Part shown: one piece after another, positions 1,334 to 13,193 of the stretch
Numbering within the stretch: position 1 is the stretch's first letter
How the letters are laid out: each line of letters begins with the position of its first letter
Assembly: GCA_004298675.1 (NCBI GenBank)
Contig: SCRI01000002.1
Location: 1 to 64,000, forward strand
Reading direction: 5' to 3'
Source of the DNA: a bacterium
GTDB taxonomy: Bacteria > Vulcanimicrobiota > Vulcanimicrobiia > Vulcanimicrobiales > SCRA01
DNA: 64,000 bases
Translations under genes and position numbers: made by a program
Notes under the pieces: generated by a model
Seen by the model: only the letters and a program-made list of their open reading frames with translations
What the model was told of the DNA's origin: nothing
Database searches by the model: none

Positions 1334-2445
1334 ACTTCCTCCGGGAGCGCGCTCCCCGTCAGCAGACGCTCCACCAGCATCTGCTCCACATCGTCGTGTG
1401 CCAATCCACGCGCCGCGGCCCGCATCGCCTCCAACGTTCCCGGCGCCCGCAACGCAACCAGCGTCCACCACAAGCGGTCACCATCGAGTTCGTTATCGGC
1501 AATCGTCACCGCCGCGCCCGCGCGCACGAAAACCTCAGCATTTCTGGCTTGGTGCTGCTCCGCCGCAAAGGGGTAGGGAACCAAGACGGCGGCGGTCCCC
1601 GTCGCCGCGAGCTCCGCGAGCGTCGAGGCACCCGCGCGCGCCACGACGAGGTCGGCGGCGGCGTAACCCAACGCCATGTCGTCGAGATACGGCAGGAGCG
1701 CTACGCTATTTCCGGGGGCCAGGTCGTGCTCCTCCGCGTGCATCCACTCATAATCGCGCGGCCCCGTGACGTGGATCACCTGCCAGCCATCGAGCGCTCG
1801 CCGTGTCACCAGAGCGGCGATGGCCTGGTTGATGCGGCGTGCGCCCTGACTGCCGCCCAACGCCAGCAGCGTGGGGCGCGCGGGATCGAGCCCGAGCGCC
1901 TTGCGCGCGAGGTCTTGGGGGCGCCCGCGCCGCACCTCCGGCCGCACGGGTACCCCCGTGACGTGGAACTTTCCGCCGAACGCCTCCGCCGCGTCGGCAT
2001 ACGCCCCCCACACCTCGTCCGCTAACGGCGCAGCCAAGCGGTTGGTGAGGCCGGGCGAGGCGTTGGGCTCCAACAGCGCGATGCGTGCGCGCGAGAGCGG
2101 GCGGATGAGCCAGGCCGCCCACACCACCGGAAGGCTGACGTAGCCGCCCGTAGCTACGACCACCTGCGGCTTGAAGGCGGCGAGTTTGCCGCAGGCGATC
2201 GTCAGCGCCGCGAGATTGATCGCCGCCGTACGCAGTGCCGCCAGCGAAAGTTTGCGCTCGAGCGGTGCCCCGGGCAAGGCTTCGAACGGGTAACCCGCCG
2301 CCTGCGCCAGGCGCGCTTCGATGCCATCGGCCATGCCGAAGAAGCGGATCTCGGCAGCGGGGTCGCGCTCCTTGAGCGCGGCGGCCAGCGCTAGCGCGGG
2401 ATAGACGTGGCCCCCGGTGCCCCCACCGGCGAAGGCGACTCTCAA
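1330..2445 (-). CDS. murG: UDP-GlcNAc--lipid I N-acetylglucosaminyltransferase MurG
   Basis: Membrane-associated GT28 transferase that converts lipid I to lipid II. The 371-residue product starts at a TTG, giving the N-terminus MRVAFAGGGTGGHVYPALAL with the family glycine-rich loop; the second domain shows LALGGSQGARRIN and the UDP-GlcNAc-binding segment RAGASTLAELAATG. The open frame extends about 95 codons further upstream, but that part is antisense-like sequence inside ftsW, and the family start coincides with TTGA overlapping the ftsW stop. Lies between ftsW and murC, as in most division clusters. Confidence 0.95.
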   Translation of the reverse strand: MRVAFAGGGTGGHVYPALALAAALKERDPAAEIRFFGMADGIEARLAQAAGYPFEALPGAPLERKLSLAALRTAAINLAALTIACGKLAAFKPQVVVATGGYVSLPVVWAAWLIRPLSRARIALLEPNASPGLTNRLAAPLADEVWGAYADAAEAFGGKFHVTGVPVRPEVRRGRPQDLARKALGLDPARPTLLALGGSQGARRINQAIAALVTRRALDGWQVIHVTGPRDYEWMHAEEHDLAPGNSVALLPYLDDMALGYAAADLVVARAGASTLAELAATGTAAVLVPYPFAAEQHQARNAEVFVRAGAAVTIADNELDGDRLWWTLVALRAPGTLEAMRAAARGLAHDDVEQMLVERLLTGSALPEEV

Positions 2446-3596
2446 GCGGCGGCTCCGCCGCGCAGGCCCAGCGCACGGACGCGGATGCCGGCGCGACGGC
2501 TGCAGCCCACGTTGAGTATCAGCGCCACGCAGACGAGATTGACCATCAGCGAGCTGCCGCCGAACGAAATGAACGGCAACGGAACGCCGGTAACCGGCCA
2601 CGACGAGGTGACCACGCCGATATTGACCAGCGCCTGCAGCACGATGGTGGCGGCGCAGCCGGCAGCAAGATAGAAACCGAAGGCGTCCGGTGCGGCGATG
2701 GCGATGCGGATAGCGCGATAGGCCAGCCACACGAAGAGTCCCAGCACCACGACCGACCCGATCAGTCCCAACTCCTCACCGATGACGGCGAAGATGAAAT
2801 CCGTGTACTGCTCGGGCAGATAGAAGAACTTCTGGCGCGACTCACCCAAGCCCAGGCCGAAGATGCCGCCGCTGCCCAGTGCCAGCAGCGACTGAATGAT
2901 GTGGAAGCCGGTGTTCTGTGGATCTTTCCATGGATCCAGGAACGCCATGATGCGCGCGCGCTTGTACGGCGACATCAGCACGGCATAGGCCACCAGCGGC
3001 GCCATGCAGCCCAGCGTCGCGACCAGGTGCGGGATGCGCGCGCCGGCCACGAAGAGCATCAACAGCCCCACCATCACGTAGAGGCTGGCCGTGCCCATGT
3101 CCGGCTGACGCAGCACCAGCAGTGCCAGTATTCCGATCACCACGACGATGGGAAAGACGCCGCGCTGCAGCGAGGTCACGCGCTCGCTCTTCTGGGAGAG
3201 CGCGTGGGCGAGGTAGATCACCAGCGCCAATTTAGCGAACTCCGAAGGCTGCAGTGAGACCGGCCCCAGCGCGAACCAGCGCCGCGCGCCGCCCACCATC
3301 GTTCCAACGTGGGGCAGCAGCACCGCCGCCAGCGAGAAGACCGCCAGCCCCATCAGCCACGGCGTCCAGCGCTCGAGTCTGCGGTAATCCATGCGGTACG
3401 CCAAGAGCGCCGGCGGCAGCGAGAGCGCCAGCCACAGCAACTGCCGCTTGAGATAATATGTCGTGTCGTGATGCTCCGCGAATCCCGAGACGCTCGACGC
3501 CGAGAAGATCATCACCAGGCCGATGCCCACCAGCGCAGCCACTCCGGCCACCAAGGTCCAGTCGGGCGCGGCGCGCTCGCGGCGATTACGCGCCAC
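2442..3596 (-). CDS. ftsW: Lipid II polymerase / cell division protein FtsW (SEDS family)
   Basis: Multi-pass SEDS glycosyltransferase that polymerises lipid II at the septum together with the class B PBP (FtsI, also in this operon). The 384-residue product has about ten hydrophobic segments, the conserved loop GARRWFALGPVSLQPSEFAK, and the C-terminal signature PVTGVPLPFISFGGSS. The start is a GTG at 3596, 11 nt inside the 3' end of murD; a longer open frame upstream is murD in another frame. Adjacent genes murD and murG support FtsW rather than RodA. Confidence 0.94.
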   Translation of the reverse strand: MARNRRERAAPDWTLVAGVAALVGIGLVMIFSASSVSGFAEHHDTTYYLKRQLLWLALSLPPALLAYRMDYRRLERWTPWLMGLAVFSLAAVLLPHVGTMVGGARRWFALGPVSLQPSEFAKLALVIYLAHALSQKSERVTSLQRGVFPIVVVIGILALLVLRQPDMGTASLYVMVGLLMLFVAGARIPHLVATLGCMAPLVAYAVLMSPYKRARIMAFLDPWKDPQNTGFHIIQSLLALGSGGIFGLGLGESRQKFFYLPEQYTDFIFAVIGEELGLIGSVVVLGLFVWLAYRAIRIAIAAPDAFGFYLAAGCAATIVLQALVNIGVVTSSWPVTGVPLPFISFGGSSLMVNLVCVALILNVGCSRRAGIRVRALGLRGGAAA

Positions 3597-5001
3597 GCGT
3601 CGCGCCCCGCTGCGCCAGCGCTTCGACCAGCGCCGTGAAGACTTGGCCGCGCTGCTCCGCCGATTCGAACATGTCGAACGAGGCGCAGCCGGGCGCCAGC
3701 AGCACCACGTCCCCGGGCTGCGCCAGCGAGCGCGCCCGCTCCACGGCTTCCTCCATGCTCTCCACGCGGTGGAGCGGCGCCCGCACCACGTGGGCGGCGA
3801 TGGCGTCGGAGGCCTCGCCCAGCAGCACCACCGCGCGCGCGCTGGCATCCAGCGCATCGCCCATCTCGCTGAAATCCGTGCCCTTGGCCTTGCCGCCGCA
3901 GATCGCGACGATGCGGCCGGACTCGAACGCTTTGAGCGCGGCGATCACCGCGCCGGGGTTGGTGCCCTTGGAGTCGTCGACGTAGCGAACGCCTTCGATT
4001 TCGGCCACCAGTTGCAGCCGGTGCGGGAGGGCGTGAAAGGCCTTCACCGCCTCGCGAATCGCCACGGCGGAGGCGCCGGCGGCCAAGGCCGCGCCGGCGG
4101 CACCCATCACGTTGTAGACGTTGTGCTCGCCCAGCAGCGGAATCTCGCTCACGGACATCAGCGCCTGTGCGCGCGGCGCCCCGGGCTTGGCAAAACAGAT
4201 CTTGCCGTCGCGCACGTAGAGCGCGGAGTTGCGATGCGGCTCGTGCGAGAACCACCACGCTTCGCAGGGGATGCGGTAGCTCTCCACGTCGGTAGCCAGC
4301 GGCGCGATGTACGGATCGTCGAGATTCCCGATGAAGACGTCGCCCACGCCCTGGTTGGCGAAGATGCGCAGCTTGGCTTCGCGGTACTCCTCCATCGAGT
4401 GGTAACGATCGAGGTGATCCGGCGAAAGGTTGAGGATCAGCGAGACGCGCGGCTTGAACGAGCGGATCGACTCGAGCTGGAACGAGCTGACCTCCGCCAC
4501 CACCCAATCTTCGGGCGCGGCACTGGCGGTCTCGCGAATAAGCGCGTTGCCGATGTTTCCGCCCACGTGCACGACGCGGCCGTCGGCCGCGAGCATCGCC
4601 CCCAACAGCGCCGTGGTGGTGGTCTTGCCCTTGGTGCCGGTGACGGCCAGGAGCGGGGCGCGGCAGATGCGGTAGGCTACCTCGATCTCGCTGTAAACGG
4701 GGATGCCGCGATCCTGCACGCGGCGCACCGTGGGCGTCGTCAGTGGAACGCCCGGCGAGAGCACCGCCGCGCCCAGCTCGGGGAGCACGCGTTCCAACTC
4801 CTCACGATCCAAAAACGTCGCGCCGGCAGCCTCGATCTCGCGAATGGCGGGCTCGATCTGCTCGGCGGGCTTGTCGTCGACGCCCCACACCTCCGCGCCG
4901 CGCGCGCGCAGCACCTCCACCGTCGCGAGGCCGCTGCGTCCCAAGCCGATGACGAGCACGCGCTCGCCCTTGGTGAAATGCATGCCCTGCTCGTCGATCA
5001 T
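3586..5001 (-). CDS. murD: UDP-N-acetylmuramoyl-L-alanine--D-glutamate ligase MurD
   Basis: ATP-dependent ligase adding D-glutamate to UDP-MurNAc-L-Ala. The 471-residue protein has an N-terminal Rossmann motif VLVIGLGRSGLATVE, the ATP loop VTGTKGKTTTTALLG, the AEVSSFQLES motif typical of MurD, LSPDHLDRY, and the C-terminal VDDSKGTNPGA segment. The ATG at 5001 overlaps the mraY stop as ATGA; an internal ATG seven codons in is an alternative start. The frame stays open far upstream, but that stretch is mraY. Confidence 0.95.
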   Translation of the reverse strand: MIDEQGMHFTKGERVLVIGLGRSGLATVEVLRARGAEVWGVDDKPAEQIEPAIREIEAAGATFLDREELERVLPELGAAVLSPGVPLTTPTVRRVQDRGIPVYSEIEVAYRICRAPLLAVTGTKGKTTTTALLGAMLAADGRVVHVGGNIGNALIRETASAAPEDWVVAEVSSFQLESIRSFKPRVSLILNLSPDHLDRYHSMEEYREAKLRIFANQGVGDVFIGNLDDPYIAPLATDVESYRIPCEAWWFSHEPHRNSALYVRDGKICFAKPGAPRAQALMSVSEIPLLGEHNVYNVMGAAGAALAAGASAVAIREAVKAFHALPHRLQLVAEIEGVRYVDDSKGTNPGAVIAALKAFESGRIVAICGGKAKGTDFSEMGDALDASARAVVLLGEASDAIAAHVVRAPLHRVESMEEAVERARSLAQPGDVVLLAPGCASFDMFESAEQRGQVFTALVEALAQRGATRGA

Positions 5002-5954
5002 CGTATCACCACGTATCCCGCGAGCGCGAGGATCGCGCCCGCCGTCCAGAACCGTTTCGTCACCATCGTCTCGGGCCATCCACCCAACTCGAAGTGGTGA
5101 TGCAGCGGACTCATGCGGAAGATCCGCCGGTGCGTGGTCTTGAACGAGGCCACTTGCAGGATGACCGAGAGTGCTTCCGCTGCAAAGACGCCGCCGATCA
5201 GCGGCAGCAGCAACTGCGTGCCGGTGAGGATGGCACCACCTGCCAGCAGCGCCCCCAGTGCGAGCGAGCCCGTGTCGCCCATGAAGACGCGCGCGGGGTG
5301 ACGATTGTAGTAGAGAAAACCGCCGCAGGCGCCGATCATCGCCGCCTCCACCAGCGCCACGCCGTGCGCCCCCGCAGCGGCAGCCGCAGCGATGGAGACG
5401 GCCAGCGCAGGCACCATCACGCCCGCGGCCAAGCCGTCCAAGCCGTCGGTGAGGTTGACGGCGTTGGTGGTGGCCAGCACCGCCAGCAGCGAGAGCACGT
5501 ACCACAGCACCGGCCCGGCATCGAGTGCCCCGCCCGCATGCCAGCGCGCGATGGCGTGCTCGTGCCCGGCAGGGAGCACCGCCGGCGCATACGCGAGGAA
5601 CAGCACGGCAGCCAACGCAATCAGCAGAAACTTCGTGCGCGCGCGCAGGCCCAGCGCGCGCTTGTAGCGCACGATCAGCCAGTCGTCGAGCAGGCCGATG
5701 CCGCCGCACGCAAGGGTGAGTCCAACCAAGAGCCACGCCTGCGCCGTGTGGGCGACGGCGCCGCCCACCAGTGCCGCGCCCAAGAAGAGGATACCGCCCA
5801 TCGTGGGCGTGCCGCTCTTGCTGCGATGCGATGCCGGCCCGTCTTCGTAGATGTGCTGACCGAACGCCAGCCGGCGCAACTGCGCGATGAGCGGCGCCCC
5901 CGCCATCAGCGTGACGATCAAACCGGCGGCCAAGGCCAGCAGCAGCGCGCTCAC
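4998..5954 (-). CDS. mraY: Phospho-N-acetylmuramoyl-pentapeptide transferase MraY
   Basis: Integral membrane enzyme that transfers phospho-MurNAc-pentapeptide to undecaprenyl phosphate, making lipid I. The 318-residue product shows the signatures SKSGTPTMGGI, GLLDDWLI, TTNAVNLTDGLDGLA, FMGDTGSLALG and MSPLHHHFE (the last is the MraY HHH motif), spread over about ten membrane segments. The GTG start at 5954 overlaps the stop of the CofE-like gene as GTGA. All expected catalytic Asp residues appear present. Confidence 0.95.
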   Translation of the reverse strand: MSALLLALAAGLIVTLMAGAPLIAQLRRLAFGQHIYEDGPASHRSKSGTPTMGGILFLGAALVGGAVAHTAQAWLLVGLTLACGGIGLLDDWLIVRYKRALGLRARTKFLLIALAAVLFLAYAPAVLPAGHEHAIARWHAGGALDAGPVLWYVLSLLAVLATTNAVNLTDGLDGLAAGVMVPALAVSIAAAAAAGAHGVALVEAAMIGACGGFLYYNRHPARVFMGDTGSLALGALLAGGAILTGTQLLLPLIGGVFAAEALSVILQVASFKTTHRRIFRMSPLHHHFELGGWPETMVTKRFWTAGAILALAGYVVIR

Positions 5955-6649
5955 GCCGCCTCCGCAAGTGGATTGGGGCCGCTGCCGCGCCACTTGAGCA
6001 CCACCAGCGGGGTTTGCTGATCGGCGTTGCCGTGAGGGTTGGAGCGCATCGCCTCCTGCAGCAGCGCGCGATTGATACCGCCGCTGGCGCCCAGAACGTG
6101 CGCCTTCTCTAAGTCGTTGGCATCGATCACCGCCACGTGGCAGCGCAATGCCTGCGCCAACTGTTCCGAGACCTCGTCGGGCTGCGCCGGACCCAGCACG
6201 ATCGCGCGCTCGTAGGGCGGCAGCGTTCCGGTGTACCCATCGATCGCGGCGATGGCCTCGCCGAGTATCTCGTAGAAGAGCCCGCGCCGCCCCAGCACGC
6301 GCCCGAGCGCGCTGGCGGCAACAGCGAAGAGCACTTTGGCCGTGCCGACGTCGTCGATCACCAACTGCATCGACTCCGGCTGGGCCACGGTTGCCAGCGC
6401 TCCGGCCCGGCGCGAGAGCGCGAAGGCGAGCCGGCTGGGGCGAATGTACTCGGCGGGAACGAAGCGCCCTTGCGCGATAGCCACGGCCGTCTCCGCGATA
6501 CAGAGCACATCGCCGTCGCACGCGATGCCGTTGGTTGCCTCGCGCGCGAGCGTGAGCAGATCGTCACCCGGGCCGATGAGACGCGTGCGCACGGGCAATG
6601 CCACGATGCCTCGCGGCAGCCCTTCGCGTGTGATGACCAACCTGCTCAC
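5951..6649 (-). CDS. CofE-like F420-0:gamma-glutamyl ligase family protein embedded in the mur cluster
   Basis: A 232-residue soluble protein resembling coenzyme F420-0:L-glutamate ligase (CofE, COG1478): PVRTRLIGPGDDLLTLA near residues 20-36, then GDVLCIAETAVAIAQGRFVP, a central PYERAIVLGPAQPDE region, and a C-terminal NPHGNADQQTPLVVLKWR. CofE adds L-glutamate to F420-0 with GTP. In this copy the Lys-Ser-Lys-type segment of archaeal CofE reads AETAVAIAQGR, a form I associate with the divergent bacterial branch, so F420 activity is doubtful. It is translationally coupled on both sides (ATGA with murF, GTGA with mraY), which argues for a role in the envelope pathway. No other F420 biosynthesis gene is in the window. 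Function is unassigned; glutamyl transfer to a wall precursor is only an inference. Confidence 0.8.
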   Translation of the reverse strand: MSRLVITREGLPRGIVALPVRTRLIGPGDDLLTLAREATNGIACDGDVLCIAETAVAIAQGRFVPAEYIRPSRLAFALSRRAGALATVAQPESMQLVIDDVGTAKVLFAVAASALGRVLGRRGLFYEILGEAIAAIDGYTGTLPPYERAIVLGPAQPDEVSEQLAQALRCHVAVIDANDLEKAHVLGASGGINRALLQEAMRSNPHGNADQQTPLVVLKWRGSGPNPLAEAA

Positions 6650-8082
6650 CGGCGTAAGCCCTCCAGGATCTCCTCCATCTTATAACGGCGCGAACCCTTC
6701 AAGAGCACGGCGTCGCCCGGACGAAGATAGTCCCGCAGCCACTCGGTGGCGTCGGCGTTGCTGGCATAACGCGTGATGCTGGCGGGCGGCGCGCCGCCTG
6801 CGATGGCACCCTCTTCCAGCGCGCCGGAGAACTCGCCTCCGACCAGCAGCGCATCCAGTGCGCGCCGGCGCGTCAACGCGCCCGCGCACGCGCCCACGCG
6901 GCGATGCAGCTGCTCGGCGTTCGAGCCGAGCTCGGCCATGCTCGACAAGACGGCGATCCTGCGCCGCGCGTGCTGTCCGGCGAACGTCACAAGGGCGGCC
7001 TCGGTGGACGAAGGCGCGGCGTTGTAGGCGTCATAGACCAAGCACGCGCCGTTCGGCAGCTCGACGGACTCGTAGCGCCCCTCCGGAAGTGCCGCCTGCG
7101 CTAACGCGGCGACCGCTGCCTCAAGATCTCCGCCTAACACCGCCACGCACCCCAGCGCTAGCGCGGCATCCAAACGATGGTGGGCGCCGGGAATGGCGAA
7201 CTTCGCCTCCAAGACGCGAGCCGCGCGCGCGCCGGGCTCCCGGTACTCGACGCGCACGCGCCCTGCGCCCGCGGCGCTAACGCGCAGCTCACCAGCGCGC
7301 GGATCGCCCGCCTGTGTGCCCGCTTCACCGTAGCAGAGGAGCGGCTCGCGCTCGATCACGCGCTCCAGCCGCGCCAGCGACGCGCCGTCAGAGCCGCTGA
7401 TGACGGGGCGCGCGCCGAAGGCAAACAGTCCCCACTTCGTCTCCTCCAGCGCCGCAAGCGACTCGAAGTTCTCGAGATGCGAGTCGCCCACGCCCGTCAG
7501 GATGCCCACCTCGGGTAGGACGGCCCCGGCGAGCACCTCGATCTCGCCGGCATGCCGCGCCCCCATCTCGACTACGAGCATCCGCGGCGTGGTCTGCGCG
7601 CGCAGCGCGCGCAGGAGCAGATGGCCGACGCCGATCTCGTTGTTTTCGTTCGCCGGCGTGGCCAGCACCGGCCCCAGCCCGGCCGCTTGGCACAACGTGG
7701 TGCAGAAGGCCTTGGTGGTCGTCTTGCCCACGCTGCCCGTGATCGCCGCCACGTGCCCCATGAAGCTATCGCGCGCCGTTCGCGCACAGGCCAGGTAGGC
7801 CCGCGTGGTGTCCTCCACCACGATGCCGGGAAGATCCGGCGGCAACGCTTCCGCACGCTCGACGATCGCGCCAACGGCGCCGCGCGCGCGCGCCTGCGGT
7901 AGGAAATCGTGTCCGTCGAAGCGCTCGCCGCGCAACGCCACGTAGACTTGCCCGGGGCGCAGGGCGCGCGTGTCCGTCGAGGGGTCGAGCGCGGCGCCAA
8001 ACGCCGCGCGCGAGGGCACGCAACGCCCACCCGTCTGCTCCAAGACGCGCTCGAGTTCGAGCGCGACGGCGCGCTCGCTCAC
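6646..8082 (-). CDS. murF: UDP-N-acetylmuramoyl-tripeptide--D-alanyl-D-alanine ligase MurF
   Basis: Mur ligase that adds D-Ala-D-Ala to the UDP-MurNAc-tripeptide. The 478-residue product has the N-terminal substrate domain (DTRALRPGQVYVALRGERFDG), ATP loop ITGSVGKTTTKAF, the TPANENNEIG motif typical of MurF, VVEMGARHAGEI, and the C-terminal YDAYNAAPSS motif. GTG start at 8082 overlaps the murE stop (GTGA), and its own stop overlaps the next gene (ATGA). Length is normal for the family. Confidence 0.95.
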   Translation of the reverse strand: MSERAVALELERVLEQTGGRCVPSRAAFGAALDPSTDTRALRPGQVYVALRGERFDGHDFLPQARARGAVGAIVERAEALPPDLPGIVVEDTTRAYLACARTARDSFMGHVAAITGSVGKTTTKAFCTTLCQAAGLGPVLATPANENNEIGVGHLLLRALRAQTTPRMLVVEMGARHAGEIEVLAGAVLPEVGILTGVGDSHLENFESLAALEETKWGLFAFGARPVISGSDGASLARLERVIEREPLLCYGEAGTQAGDPRAGELRVSAAGAGRVRVEYREPGARAARVLEAKFAIPGAHHRLDAALALGCVAVLGGDLEAAVAALAQAALPEGRYESVELPNGACLVYDAYNAAPSSTEAALVTFAGQHARRRIAVLSSMAELGSNAEQLHRRVGACAGALTRRRALDALLVGGEFSGALEEGAIAGGAPPASITRYASNADATEWLRDYLRPGDAVLLKGSRRYKMEEILEGLRR

Positions 8083-9587
8083 TGCAGCCGCTCCTCCAGC
8101 GCGGCGCGTGCGACCGCGGCATCGGAGAACGGGCGGCGCTCCGCTCCCACGATCTGATACTCCTCGTGTCCCTTGCCGGCGATCACCACGACGTCCGCCG
8201 GCGCGGCCGCCGCCACCGCCGCACCGATCGCCGCGGCGCGATCGGGCTCCACGTGGACCTCACAGCTCGCGCCGTGCGTCTGCGCCAACGTCACGCCCTC
8301 CAGTACCTCGTCGAGAATGCGCCGCGGATCCTCGCTGCGCGGGTTGTCGGAGGTGACGTAGAGCACGTCGGCGCGCCGCGCCGCGGCCGCTCCCATCAGC
8401 GGACGCTTGCCGCGGTCGCGATCGCCGCCGGCACCGAAGACCACGATGACCCTGCCGCGCGCGCCCGGACGCACGGCCTCCAAGACGTTGGCAATGCCGT
8501 CGGGCGTGTGGGCGTAGTCGACGATCACGGCCGGCAGCGTCCGCGCGCCGGCACCGCGCTCGGGCAACCGCACGCTCATCATCCGCCCCGGCACGTCGCG
8601 CACGCGCTCCAGGCTGCGCGCAATCGTTGCGAGATCGAGCCCGAGCGCAATCCCGCAGCCGGCGGCGCAGAGCGCGTTTGCAACGTTGAAGCGCCCGGGC
8701 AGGCGCAGCGCGACGGGCGCGGCCGCGGCGGCGTGGCGCAACACGAACCTCGTCTGCTCCGCGTTCACCTCCACGTGCTCGGCGCGCACGTCGGCGTCGC
8801 TCTCGTCGCCGATCGCGTAGCGCAGCGTACGCGCAACCGGCCACGCATCCGCCAGCCAATCGCGCGCAGTGGCATCGTCGGCGTTGAGCACCGCGCTCCC
8901 GGGCGCCTTCACGCGCTCGGACTGGCGCGCCGAACGCGCCAACAGCTCCGTAAAGAGCACGCGTTTCGCGGCCGCGTACGCCTCCAGCGTGCCGTGGAAG
9001 TCCAAGTGATCCTGCGTGAGATTCGTGAACGCCGCCACGTCGAACTCCACGTCGTCGGCGCGATGGAGCGCCAGCGCGTGCGAGCTCACCTCCATCACGA
9101 CGGCTCGTGCGCCGGCCGCGCGCACCTCCGCCAGCAGCTCCTGCAACTCCAACGCCAGGGGCGTGGTGTTCTCCAGAGCCCACGAACGATCGGCAAGGTG
9201 CGCCCCCAGCGTGCCGATGGCCGCGCAGGGCACACCGGCCTCCTCCAATACCGCCTGCACCAGATACGTCGTGGTGGTCTTGCCGTTGGTGCCGGTGATG
9301 CCGATGCAGCGCAGCGCGCGTGAGGGCTGGTCAAAGTACGCCGCCGCAAGCGACGAGAGCGTGGTATGGGCGTTCTCCACGACGATCGACTCCACGCCGG
9401 TAGGCAACACCAGCGGGCGTTCGCTCACCACGGCGGCGGCGCCCCGGCGGACCGCCTCGGCGACGAAGTCGTGGCCGTCGGCGCGCGCGCCGCGCAGGCA
9501 GACAAAGACGTCACCCGGGGTGACGCGGCGTGAGTCCACGGCGATGCGGCGCTGCGTTAGAGGCTTCACGCCGGCGTCTTCGGTCAC
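8079..9587 (-). CDS. murE: UDP-MurNAc-L-Ala-D-Glu--2,6-diaminopimelate ligase MurE
   Basis: Mur ligase that adds the third stem residue. The 502-residue product carries DSRRVTPGDVFVCLRG, ATP loop GITGTNGKTTTTYLV, MEVSSHALAL, NLTQDHLDFHG and, decisively, TSDNPRSEDP. The DNPR motif marks enzymes that use meso-diaminopimelate rather than L-lysine, so the organism should have A1-gamma-type, Gram-negative-like peptidoglycan. GTG start at 9587 overlaps the ftsI stop as GTGA. Confidence 0.95.
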   Translation of the reverse strand: MTEDAGVKPLTQRRIAVDSRRVTPGDVFVCLRGARADGHDFVAEAVRRGAAAVVSERPLVLPTGVESIVVENAHTTLSSLAAAYFDQPSRALRCIGITGTNGKTTTTYLVQAVLEEAGVPCAAIGTLGAHLADRSWALENTTPLALELQELLAEVRAAGARAVVMEVSSHALALHRADDVEFDVAAFTNLTQDHLDFHGTLEAYAAAKRVLFTELLARSARQSERVKAPGSAVLNADDATARDWLADAWPVARTLRYAIGDESDADVRAEHVEVNAEQTRFVLRHAAAAAPVALRLPGRFNVANALCAAGCGIALGLDLATIARSLERVRDVPGRMMSVRLPERGAGARTLPAVIVDYAHTPDGIANVLEAVRPGARGRVIVVFGAGGDRDRGKRPLMGAAAARRADVLYVTSDNPRSEDPRRILDEVLEGVTLAQTHGASCEVHVEPDRAAAIGAAVAAAAPADVVVIAGKGHEEYQIVGAERRPFSDAAVARAALEERLQ

Positions 9588-11341
9588 GGCCGCTTCGCCC
9601 CCGTGCGAGCCAAGCGTTCGTTCGGCACGACACCCGCATGCAGCATCGCTAAGCGTGCGATGCGAGCGAAGGCCGGCGCCGCGACTTCGGAGCCGTAGAT
9701 CGAGCCGCGCGGCCGCTCCACCTTCACGAGAATGACGAAACGTGGATGCTGGGCGGGGATCATGCCGATGAACGACGCGTTATACGCGCCGGAGGCATAG
9801 TAGCCGTCGATCGCGATCTGCGCGGTGCCGGTCTTGCCGGCCGTGGTATAGCCCGGCACTTGCGCGGTGGGATTGCCGGTGCCGCGCACCACCACTTCGC
9901 GCAGATAATGGCGCAACTGCGCTGCCACGCGCTCGGAGACGACGCGGCGCACCACCTCGGGCGCGTACTGGTAGAGCACGCTGCCGTCCGGCGCCAGCAG
10001 GCGGTCCAAGATGCGCGGGCGCAGCAGCATGCCACCGTTTGCAATCGCGGCGTAGGCCATTGCCAACTGCAGCGGCTCAACGGAGATGCCCTGACCGAAG
10101 GAGATCGTGGCCACGCCCACCCGATTCCAGCCGTCGGCGCCGGGCATGATACCGGGGTTCTCACCCGGCAATCCCACGTCGGTGGGGACACCGAAGCCGA
10201 AGGCGCGCACGGTGCTGTAGAGCGCGGAGGCCCCCACGCGCAGGCCGATCTCGGCCGCTCCGACATTGTGCGAGTAGGCGATGATGTCGTCGATGCTCTC
10301 GTAACGCTTGCCGGAGGCCATGAAGCCGTCCTCGGCGTTGTGGATGACGTGTCCGCCCACCTCGATGCGATCGTGCGCGGGGAACAGCGCGTGCGGCGGG
10401 ACGCCGTGTTCCAAAGCCGCTGCGGCGGTGATGAGCTTGAAGGTGGAGCCGGGCTCGTAGGAGTCCTCGACGGCGTGATCGCGCCAGGCGTCGGGCTTGG
10501 CGCGCCAGTAGGCGCCGGGATCGAAGTCCGGCAGGCTGGCCAGCGCCAAGATCGCGCCGGTATTGGGATCGAGCACGATCGCCGTGCCGCTGCGCGCGTG
10601 CCAGGTACGGATCTGCTGCCCCAGCGCCTGCTCGGTGACGAACTGCAGGTAGCGATCGACGGTGAGTTGCAGCGAGACGCCGGGCCGTGCCGGAACGACG
10701 ACCTCGGGCGCGAACGGGATGGGATCTCCGAAATGATCGGTTTCCAGCGTGATCTTCCCGGGAGCTCCGCGCAGCAGGCGATCGAAGGCGTACTCCAAGC
10801 CGGCGAGACCGTTCTCGTCCACGCCCACGAAGCCGAGGATCGGTGCGGCCAGCGTGCCGTCGGCGGCGGTGCGCTGCCCGGTCTCCTCGTGGATGACGTT
10901 GATGCCCGTGAGCGCCGCGTCGCGCAACCGCTGCGCCTGCGCCTGCGGAATCTTGCGTGCCACCCACGCGAACTCACCGCCGCCCGTGAGCAGCGGTTGC
11001 AGCTGCGTGGCGGGCAGGTGCAGGATCGACGCCAGGCGGCGCGCCGTCTCCTGCGGATCCTTGATCTGCGACGGAACGGCGAAGACGGATTCCGAGGGCT
11101 GGGAAGAGACCAGCACGAGCCCGTTGCGATCGAGGATCTCGCCGCGCCGCCCCGGCACGTCGAGCGACTCGCGCTGCTGCAGCAGCGCGTCGCGCGCGTA
11201 GACCTTGCCGTTGAGCACCTGCACGTCGAACAGACGCCACGTGAGATACGCGCCGAGCACGAGGAGCAGTGCGAAGAACCACTTCGCCCGCATGGGAGGG
11301 ATGCGGGCGAAGCTGCGGTGACGAGTCAATCGAGGCCGCAC
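9584..11341 (-). CDS. ftsI: Septal class B penicillin-binding protein (FtsI/PBP3)
   Basis: Septal D,D-transpeptidase that crosslinks peptidoglycan made by FtsW. The 585-residue product has one N-terminal membrane anchor (about residues 20-35), the GRRGEILDRNG motif of the class B N-terminal domain, and a transpeptidase domain with SxxK = STFK at 299-302, SxN = SHN at 357-359 and KTGT at 503-506. No PASTA repeats follow. The GTG at 11341 starts 1 nt after the ftsL stop; an internal Met at residue 17 is an alternative start closer to the membrane helix. Confidence 0.93.
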   Translation of the reverse strand: MRPRLTRHRSFARIPPMRAKWFFALLLVLGAYLTWRLFDVQVLNGKVYARDALLQQRESLDVPGRRGEILDRNGLVLVSSQPSESVFAVPSQIKDPQETARRLASILHLPATQLQPLLTGGGEFAWVARKIPQAQAQRLRDAALTGINVIHEETGQRTAADGTLAAPILGFVGVDENGLAGLEYAFDRLLRGAPGKITLETDHFGDPIPFAPEVVVPARPGVSLQLTVDRYLQFVTEQALGQQIRTWHARSGTAIVLDPNTGAILALASLPDFDPGAYWRAKPDAWRDHAVEDSYEPGSTFKLITAAAALEHGVPPHALFPAHDRIEVGGHVIHNAEDGFMASGKRYESIDDIIAYSHNVGAAEIGLRVGASALYSTVRAFGFGVPTDVGLPGENPGIMPGADGWNRVGVATISFGQGISVEPLQLAMAYAAIANGGMLLRPRILDRLLAPDGSVLYQYAPEVVRRVVSERVAAQLRHYLREVVVRGTGNPTAQVPGYTTAGKTGTAQIAIDGYYASGAYNASFIGMIPAQHPRFVILVKVERPRGSIYGSEVAAPAFARIARLAMLHAGVVPNERLARTGAKRP

Positions 11342-11342
11342 G

Positions 11343-11750
11343 CTACCGCATCCGGAAGATCGTACCTAGCGGCAGCGGCCAGCGCGACGCCACCGCCGGC
11401 GGCGGGACCAAACGCACGACCAGCTCCGTGCCCGGATCCTTCATGCCCAGGCGTTTGGCGATGGCGGCCAAGCGTTGCGGTGACTGCAGACGCGCCGCCT
11501 CGTCCTGCAAGACGAGGTGCTCGGTGCGCGCCGCCTGCAGCTCGCTCTGTGCATGCGCGTAGCTGTACCCCAAACTCGTGACGTGGGCCATGAGCCCGAC
11601 GTAGGCCATCACGGCCAGGAAGGGCACCGCCGCGCAGACGGCGATCCGCAGCCACATGGCGCGGCGCATGGTGGCACCGCGCCGTGGCCGCGTCAGCTCG
11701 CGCTCGCGCCGGCGCGGATCGGGGGACGGAAGGAGACGCGCGGCGATCAC
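11343..11750 (-). CDS. ftsL: FtsL-like small cell division membrane protein
   Basis: A 135-residue protein with a basic N-terminus, one transmembrane helix (about residues 33-55) and a downstream helical segment rich in Ala, Gln and Leu compatible with a short coiled coil, ending in a proline-containing tail. Size, topology and position between rsmH and ftsI are those of FtsL, which bridges FtsB/FtsQ and the FtsWI complex. FtsL is poorly conserved in sequence, so the call depends mainly on context. GTG start overlaps the rsmH stop (GTGA). Confidence 0.8.
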   Translation of the reverse strand: MIAARLLPSPDPRRRERELTRPRRGATMRRAMWLRIAVCAAVPFLAVMAYVGLMAHVTSLGYSYAHAQSELQAARTEHLVLQDEAARLQSPQRLAAIAKRLGMKDPGTELVVRLVPPPAVASRWPLPLGTIFRMR

Positions 11751-12631
11751 GACGGCTCCTCTCGTTTACGCGCGGCACGCAGCTTCGAGCTCCGAGCGCG
11801 GGGGTTGGCCTGACGTTCGGCCTCGCTCGGCGTGACGGGTTTGCGGGTCAGCACCTCCAGACGGCGGTCGCTGCGGAAGTGCTCTTTGACGATCTTGTCC
11901 TCTAGCGAGTGGAAGGAGATGGCGACGATACGCCCACCTTCGACGATGCGATCGGTGGCCGCCACGAGCGACTCGCGCAGCGCGCCCAGCTCGTCGTTGA
12001 CGGCGATCCGCAGGGCCTGGAAGGTGCGGGTAGCGGGGTGGATGCGCTCGCGATGGCCATAACGGTGCAGCACACCCGCGATCAGCGCGGCCAAGCCCGT
12101 GGTGGTAAGGGGGAGACGGCCCTCTTCGCGGCGGCGCACGATCGCACGCGCGATGCGCCGCGCCGCTCGCTCCTGGCCGTACTCGAAGATGATCTGCGCC
12201 AATTCGGCCTCGCCAAGTGCCCCCAACATCTCGGCGGCGGTGGGGCCGGTGGTCGGATCGAGCCGCATGTCCAACGTCGCCTCCTCACGAAAACTCATGC
12301 CGCGCTCGGCGGCGTCCAACTGCATCGACGAAACTCCCAAGTCGTACAGAATCCCATCGATGGTGCCGGCGCCCAGCGCGTCGAGCCGGTGCCCCAACTC
12401 CCTGAAGTTGGCATGCACCAGCGTGAATCGCTCGGCCGGAAAATCCGCGCACCGCTCTCGCGCCTGGGGGTCGGCGTCGAAGGCGATCAGCCGCCCGGTG
12501 GAGAGCCGCTCGAGGATCCTCCGCGCATGCCCGCCGCCGCCAAACGTAGCGTCGACGTACGTGCCCTGCGGACGAATCGCCAGATACTCGAGCGCCTCGG
12601 CCAAGAGCACGGGGACGTGCCCCGCGTCCAT
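11747..12631 (-). CDS. rsmH: 16S rRNA (cytosine(1402)-N(4))-methyltransferase RsmH (MraW)
   Basis: SAM-dependent methyltransferase acting on C1402 of 16S rRNA in the 30S subunit. The 294-residue product begins [17 protein letters not shown], has the SAM-binding DATFGGGGHARRIL, and the family motifs ILYDLGVSSMQLD, MSFREEATLDMR, RTFQALRIAVNDEL and SFHSLEDKIVKE. ATG at 12631 shares one base with the mraZ TGA stop (TGATG), so translation is probably coupled. Confidence 0.95.
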   Translation of the reverse strand: MDAGHVPVLLAEALEYLAIRPQGTYVDATFGGGGHARRILERLSTGRLIAFDADPQARERCADFPAERFTLVHANFRELGHRLDALGAGTIDGILYDLGVSSMQLDAAERGMSFREEATLDMRLDPTTGPTAAEMLGALGEAELAQIIFEYGQERAARRIARAIVRRREEGRLPLTTTGLAALIAGVLHRYGHRERIHPATRTFQALRIAVNDELGALRESLVAATDRIVEGGRIVAISFHSLEDKIVKEHFRSDRRLEVLTRKPVTPSEAERQANPRARSSKLRAARKREEPS

Positions 12632-13071
12632 CAGTAGAGGCCTAGCTCCGTCATCAGATCGGCGACGTTCTCAACTTCCGGCTGCCGGTGATACGCCTGC
12701 GCGCTCCACATCTCCACGCGCGTCAGCGTTCCGACGAGCACCACCTCCCGTTCGATGCCCGCGTCTCTGCGAAGGTTGGGGGGAATGAGCAGGCGCCCTT
12801 GCCCGTCCGTCGAGACCTCTTCGGTGCTGCCGAAGAGGCGGCGGACGAATCGACGGTACCGCTCGTCCTTCCGAGGTGCGGCCTCCAGCCGGTCGCAGAA
12901 TGCCTCCCACGCCCGCTGGGGGTAGATTGCCAGACAGGGATCCGGCGGCGCGATCGTGATGACGAAAGCCCCACCCAGTCGCTCGCGGAGCCGGGCAGGC
13001 ACGACCAGTCGCCCCTTGTCATCGAGCCGAAGCTCGTACGACCCCGAAAAACGGGGGAACTCGGACGCCAC
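12631..13071 (-). CDS. mraZ: Transcriptional regulator MraZ
   Basis: DNA-binding regulator of the division operon with two SpoVT/AbrB-type MraZ half-domains: residues near 12-50 ([19 protein letters not shown]) and near 85-125 ([19 protein letters not shown]). Starting at the GTG at 13071 gives 146 residues, the usual MraZ length; the open frame continues 25 codons upstream through the promoter and operator, so that extension is rejected. First gene of the operon. The four upstream repeats (separate entry) match the way MraZ recognises its own promoter. Confidence 0.93.
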
Positions 13072-13078
13072 TGACTTA

Positions 13079-13112
13079 CCACTTGGCTCCACTCTCGACC
13101 ATTTGCAACCAC
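13079..13112 (-). promoter_or_regulatory. MraZ operator: four TGG-type repeats at 10-bp spacing
   Basis: On the minus strand GTGG, ATGG, GTGG and GTGG occur at exactly 10-bp intervals (plus-strand CCAC/CCAT at 13109, 13099, 13089 and 13079), placed between the -10 box and the mraZ start. Known MraZ proteins bind three or four short TGG-containing direct repeats with a 10-bp period upstream of mraZ. The first repeat overlaps the -10 element by two bases, which suits autorepression. Confidence 0.8.
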
Positions 13113-13139
13113 TATACCCTAGCGCACCTGAAGAAGCAA
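13111..13139 (-). promoter_or_regulatory. Promoter of the mraZ division/cell-wall operon
   Basis: Minus-strand -35 TTGCTT (13139-13134) and -10 TATAGT (13116-13111) separated by exactly 17 bp, near sigma70 consensus. The transcript should start around 13104, about 30 nt before the mraZ GTG, so the MraZ repeats fall in the -10 and early leader. Confidence 0.72.
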
Positions 13140-13193
13140 CCTCCACGGCATCCCAAAGGTGAGAGCAGCGCGAGGCGACAAACTCGCTCTACG

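Follow-up and report, generated by a model that had tools for sequence, protein, structure and literature searches.

A CofE-fold ligase homologue, apparently unrelated to F420 synthesis, in peptidoglycan operons of Eremiobacterota and of an unrelated order

The window (the whole stretch of DNA analysed, 64,000 nucleotides) comes from an Eremiobacterota (WPS-2) genome, G000, and contains a complete dcw operon, encoded entirely on the minus strand in the order mraZ, rsmH, ftsL/DivIC-like, ftsI, murE, murF, CofEL, mraY, murD, ftsW, and murG, where CofEL denotes a CofE-fold ligase homologue. The genes preceding murF are mraZ (12631–13146; PF02381, 105 bits), rsmH (mraW; 11747–12631; PF01795, 332 bits), a gene for a small protein (11343–11750) identified weakly as FtsL/DivIC-like from its position and a PF04977 score of 24.6 bits, below the cut-off of 28.9, ftsI, which encodes a class B PBP (9584–11341; PF00905 and PF03717), and murE (8079–9587; TIGR01085, 490 bits). 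The DNPR motif, which is associated with MurE proteins that add meso-DAP, is seen in the MurE sequence. The murF gene (6646–8082) encodes the Mur_ligase N, M, and C domains, and its best NCBIfam match is TIGR01143, at 284 bits against a cut-off of 288.6. CofEL is followed by mraY (4998–5954; TIGR00445, 284 bits, above the cut-off of 192), murD (3586–5001; TIGR01087, 412 bits, above the cut-off of 212), which overlaps mraY at an ATGA, ftsW (2442–3593; TIGR02614, 399 bits, above the cut-off), and murG, whose start is uncertain (1330–2466; PF03033 and PF04101).

CofEL itself is a genuine ORF of 232 amino acids at positions 5951–6649 of the minus strand, with a GTG start. A sequence-only reading of the window had described a CofE-family gene between murF and mraY with 4-nt overlaps on both sides, and this description stands: GTGA is shared by the murF stop and the CofEL start (6646–6649), and again by the CofEL stop and the mraY start (5951–5954). 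The same reading was wrong in regarding the gene as standing in place of a known mur gene, because CofEL is an insertion into an otherwise ordinary gene order in which all of the mur genes are kept and none is displaced. In profile searches, the protein scored 52 bits for PF01996 (the CofE fold; cut-off 25), and the Pfam search identified this domain alone, with no Mur_ligase N, M, or C domain. The score against the CofE equivalog model, TIGR01916, was 34.4 bits and failed the cut-off of 180.65. The only strong structural match of the AlphaFold model (pLDDT 84.4) was to CofE, with 2phn as the best PDB entry (Z 15.2, 186 residues aligned, rmsd 3.4).

Of the 149 genomes of the phylum, 135 contain CofEL, as do 107 of the 117 genomes of the window's class (families f1–f3) when counted from the same table. 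A survey of the neighbourhoods in these relatives confirmed that the position of the gene in the mur operon is conserved. All 53 distinct class loci that have the three genes show the order murF–CofEL–mraY, so the arrangement is not a product of chance. Translational coupling is also conserved, with NTGA at the murF/CofEL junction in 42 of these loci and at the CofEL/mraY junction in 45. In nine of the 10 class genomes with no CofEL match, the mraY gene of the operon was also absent or was cut by a contig end. In the tenth, G085, murF adjoins mraY on a 2.7-kb locus (L171, G085:C95), but the proteins encoded there score far lower than their class counterparts (199 bits for MurF and 288 bits for MraY), and this contig is therefore likely to be a contaminant of that MAG. 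At another locus, L021, the mur operon is of the Eremiobacterota type and includes CofEL; the public record is titled Rhodospirillales and is probably a mislabelled or contaminated MAG.

In the genus g44, MurF and CofEL are encoded in one reading frame. The domains of both proteins were confirmed in a single frame in two genomes only, G026 (L083, 799 amino acids) and G024 (L186, 820 amino acids), where each ORF contains both Pfam domain sets, including the Mur_ligase domains in the MurF part. An open-ended ORF in G025, of the same genus, starts in the C-terminus of murF and fits the same fusion. Judged from sequence alone, an internal start within these frames is possible. Large open frames were also seen in many other genomes, but we rejected them as fusions, as they appear to be mostly left open by high G+C.

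Outside the class, the CofEL genes of Eremiobacterota lie outside the mur operon and encode a longer form of about 400–440 amino acids, consisting of an N-terminal hydrophobic helix, a domain of approximately 150 amino acids with no Pfam match, and the CofEL domain. The hydrophobicity of the helix (Kyte–Doolittle 2.1–3.4 over 19 residues) predicts that these deep-branching proteins are anchored in the membrane, and the basic residues that follow it in several of them, although not uniformly, suggest that the catalytic domain would be cytoplasmic. We make no such claim for the conserved central helix, whose hydrophobicity is too undistinctive to indicate membrane insertion. In 12 of the 17 loci L058–L074 (e.g., L066:4281–6014, minus strand), a gene family oriented away from the long-form CofEL adjoins it; this family has no confident Pfam match and looks repeat-rich, with a C-terminus that is charged and possibly coiled-coil. 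In a wider search, the CofEL family extended to other phyla, where its neighbours vary and include V-type ATPase subunits, ispDF, rpsB, and arginine genes. Very divergent relatives fused to TPR (L138:6983–11092 and L139:3445–7567) face folP and a folK–Mur-ligase fusion, an arrangement that hints at a function in folate metabolism there. No relative was found on viral contigs; on plasmids, the sole match was an annotated cofE from Paracoccus, and the deep-branch query matched nothing.

A second placement beside wall genes was found in the order of G288, which is unrelated to the window's class and in which 65 of 78 genomes contain the CofEL family. At the G288 locus, the gene order is mreB–mreC–CofEL–mreD–PBP2–rodA. 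Among the 31 loci of this order that we read (L130 and L141–L170), CofEL is preceded by mreC and followed by mreD in 26, including L130. In L147, which begins at a contig end, and L163, mreD and PBP2 follow CofEL and no mreC was found, and in three loci of one genus CofEL is elsewhere. CofD was detected in none of the 78 genomes, and FolC scored above the cut-off in 71 of them. On genome content, explanations based on F420 and on FolC fail in both clades.

The observation that no F420 genes accompany CofEL is true of its neighbourhood and, according to the profile searches, of the whole genome, in which CofEL is the only PF01996 gene; it is thus not the sole CofE of a genome with the full F420 pathway. 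Neither CofD nor CofH was found above the cut-off in G000 or elsewhere in its class. The one CofD-type protein of G000 is YvcK (TIGR01826, 373.6 bits; cut-off 196), a UDP-GlcNAc-binding CofD relative; its gene (G000:C46:180696–181547) can be mistaken for an F420 gene. The CofH match in G000 scored 308 bits, below the cut-off of 374, and is likely to be a relative from the menaquinone pathway. Across 148 genomes of the phylum, CofD passed the cut-off in 13, CofH in 13, and both in 12, and all of these genomes belong to families f13–f16, outside the window's class. At least nine deep-branching genomes encode, in addition to CofEL, a second match of the CofE type; four of these matches were read, and the one that was scored (L077) reached 253.8 bits, above the cut-off for CofE. 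Because no F420 genes were found, the suggestion in the sequence-only reading that the protein couples cofactor state to wall synthesis is unsupported.

When 57 sequences were placed in a tree, those of canonical CofE formed one clade, divided from CofEL by a very long branch (3.6 changes per site). Another clade (support 99/97) comprises the members encoded in the mur operon, and the members located between mreC and mreD group elsewhere in the tree, also with support; the two wall-operon placements therefore look independent. CofEL and CofE (2phn, 7uld) share their fold and PF01996, and the N-terminal third is related in sequence, whereas the S-K-A-E-G of canonical CofE is A-I-A-Q-G in CofEL, and the stretch from DxN/DSFG to TP/VP is approximately 27 residues shorter. 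It is in this region that CofE has its hairpin, which is long in the Archaeoglobus enzyme and contacts F420 (PMC10861534). The changes at the SK and E positions may mean that the chemistry of the active site differs from that of CofE. CofEL carries the motifs of its own family (G-x-F-Y, I-D, D-x-N-D, N-P-x-G, and T-P), which lies in a clade apart from canonical CofE. When conservation was scored over 53 divergent family members, the invariant residues included G123, F125, Y126, D137, D176, N178, N204, G207, T213, and P214, and T22, E53, and D179 were conserved at 92–98%. The invariant polar residues suggest an active site. CofEL thus represents a separate branch within a known enzyme fold, unrelated to F420 and apparently not described before.

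The conserved context makes it quite likely that CofEL is linked to wall synthesis. Such a link had been proposed from the window alone, and it is strengthened by the second, independent operon (mreC–CofEL–mreD) and by the MurF–CofEL fusions. The sequence-only reading also suggested that the protein may glutamylate or amidate a wall precursor or a lipid carrier. We see an evenly balanced case for a more specific reading, in which CofEL is a non-F420 amide ligase of the CofE fold that acts on a cytoplasmic, membrane-proximal peptidoglycan precursor; here, we infer the activity, the amide bond, and the substrate. By homology, the enzyme would depend on a nucleotide and a metal and would activate a carboxylate by phosphoryl transfer, after which an amino acid or ammonia would attack the activated carboxylate to form the amide bond. 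It would act on the cytoplasmic side near the membrane, at the stage between MurF and MraY, with UDP-MurNAc-pentapeptide or lipid I as the substrate, and would modify a stem carboxylate that is still free, for example the D-Glu alpha carboxylate or that of DAP. With a MurE of the DNPR type, D-Glu, DAP, and the terminal D-Ala of the MurF product would offer free carboxylates, and modification of one of them by CofEL is the simplest proposal. In its fullest form, this reading makes CofEL a CofE-fold amino-acid ligase, distinct from the Mur ligase superfamily, by which UDP-MurNAc-pentapeptide or lipid I would gain an extra residue or be amidated. The resulting modification would be undescribed and class-wide, and a different lineage would have recruited the ligase separately into its elongation operon; we put this forward only tentatively. 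Several observations count against a precursor ligase: many members outside the class are not beside wall genes, the deep Eremiobacterota genes lie outside the mur operon, the two very divergent TPR-fused members (L138 and L139) adjoin folP and folK, and residues typical of canonical CofE are changed.

Instead of the stem peptide, the target of an amide ligase coupled to wall synthesis could be a different part of the envelope: a lipid carrier or other lipid, or a polymer or protein associated with the wall. The second placement, which is with the shape genes mreC and mreD and not with mur ligases, and the predicted membrane-anchored forms in deep Eremiobacterota are consistent with such a substrate, but we consider it unlikely, given that the class gene is locked to murF, whose product finishes the stem pentapeptide, and is fused to it in one genus. 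It is quite improbable that CofEL has lost catalysis and serves as a scaffold or regulator that joins MurF and MraY or connects the elongasome with the supply of precursors. The fusion to MurF and the replacement of SKAEG by AIAQG at canonical CofE positions would fit that role, whereas D137, D176, N178, N204, and T213 remain invariant across the divergent members, as expected of an active site. We assign an equally low probability to an unrelated housekeeping function that is merely carried in the operon; the varied neighbours in other phyla and in deep Eremiobacterota agree with this, but two separate clades have each fixed CofEL in a different peptidoglycan operon, and one genus has fused it to MurF.

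A folate gamma-glutamyl ligase like FolC2 deserves separate consideration. The Chlamydia protein CT611, which is also a COG1478 member, complements an E. coli folC mutant (PMC1971073), and FolC2 (TIGR04132, the COG1478 folate ligase model, named in Lactobacillus reuteri) resembles CofEL in belonging to the same COG and in using the fold outside F420 synthesis. The folate neighbours of the distant L138 and L139 relatives and the existence of some deep Eremiobacterota without folC above the cut-off are compatible with this function. The latter are G004–G008 and G134–G148 (families f4, f5, and f14–f16), which have no canonical FolC above the cut-off. However, CofEL had no match to TIGR04132 even at E values of up to 10, no folate genes lie near it in the window's genome, and folC is present in that genome (346.9 bits), in nearly all of the class, and in most genomes of the mreC–mreD order. 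CofEL is, moreover, found in folC-positive and folC-negative lineages alike. As a stand-in for FolC, CofEL is rejected for the class, where a normal folC is present, and is retained as an alternative for the family at large; overall, we regard a folate function as doubtful and very unlikely. Finally, it is scarcely credible that CofEL is the genome's ordinary F420-0:L-glutamate ligase, located in the dcw operon by chance, because this reading, despite the single PF01996 gene and the best structural match to CofE, is refuted, to the extent that genome content can decide, by the lack of CofD and CofH above the cut-off in the class, where the only CofD-type match in the window's genome is YvcK, and is opposed by the low equivalog score, the shortened hairpin region, and the separate CofE-type gene that accompanies CofEL in deep Eremiobacterota with F420 genes.

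A CofE-fold ligase acting on a peptidoglycan precursor would resemble the Mur ligases (MurC–F) and MurT in its expected acyl-phosphate activation and amide-bond formation, and MurF is both its operon neighbour and its fusion partner. In contrast to these enzymes, CofEL has no Mur ligase domain and its structural match is CofE; it also differs from the lipid II amidotransferase MurT–GatD in having neither the Mur-ligase core nor a glutamine amidotransferase domain. CofE activates a carboxylate by phosphoryl transfer from GTP and ligates L-glutamate, a chemistry that has been compared with that of MurD, to which CofE has been called non-homologous (PMC10861534). As an isolate of the phylum, Vulcanimicrobium alpinus, is available (PMC9758169), muropeptide analysis is possible. 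In the literature searched, which covered few subscription papers, we found no report of a wall role for COG1478 or of an F420 ligase associated with mreB, mreC, or dcw.

These results indicate that, where F420 genes are lacking, matches to the F420 ligase family can belong to a clade of their own and should not be read as evidence of F420. The set of steps in peptidoglycan precursor synthesis is regarded as complete. If the proposed function is true, a conserved extra ligase in the dcw operon of a whole class, fused to MurF in one genus, and in mreBCD of an unrelated order would represent a missed step or modification in this pathway and an overlooked possible antibacterial target.
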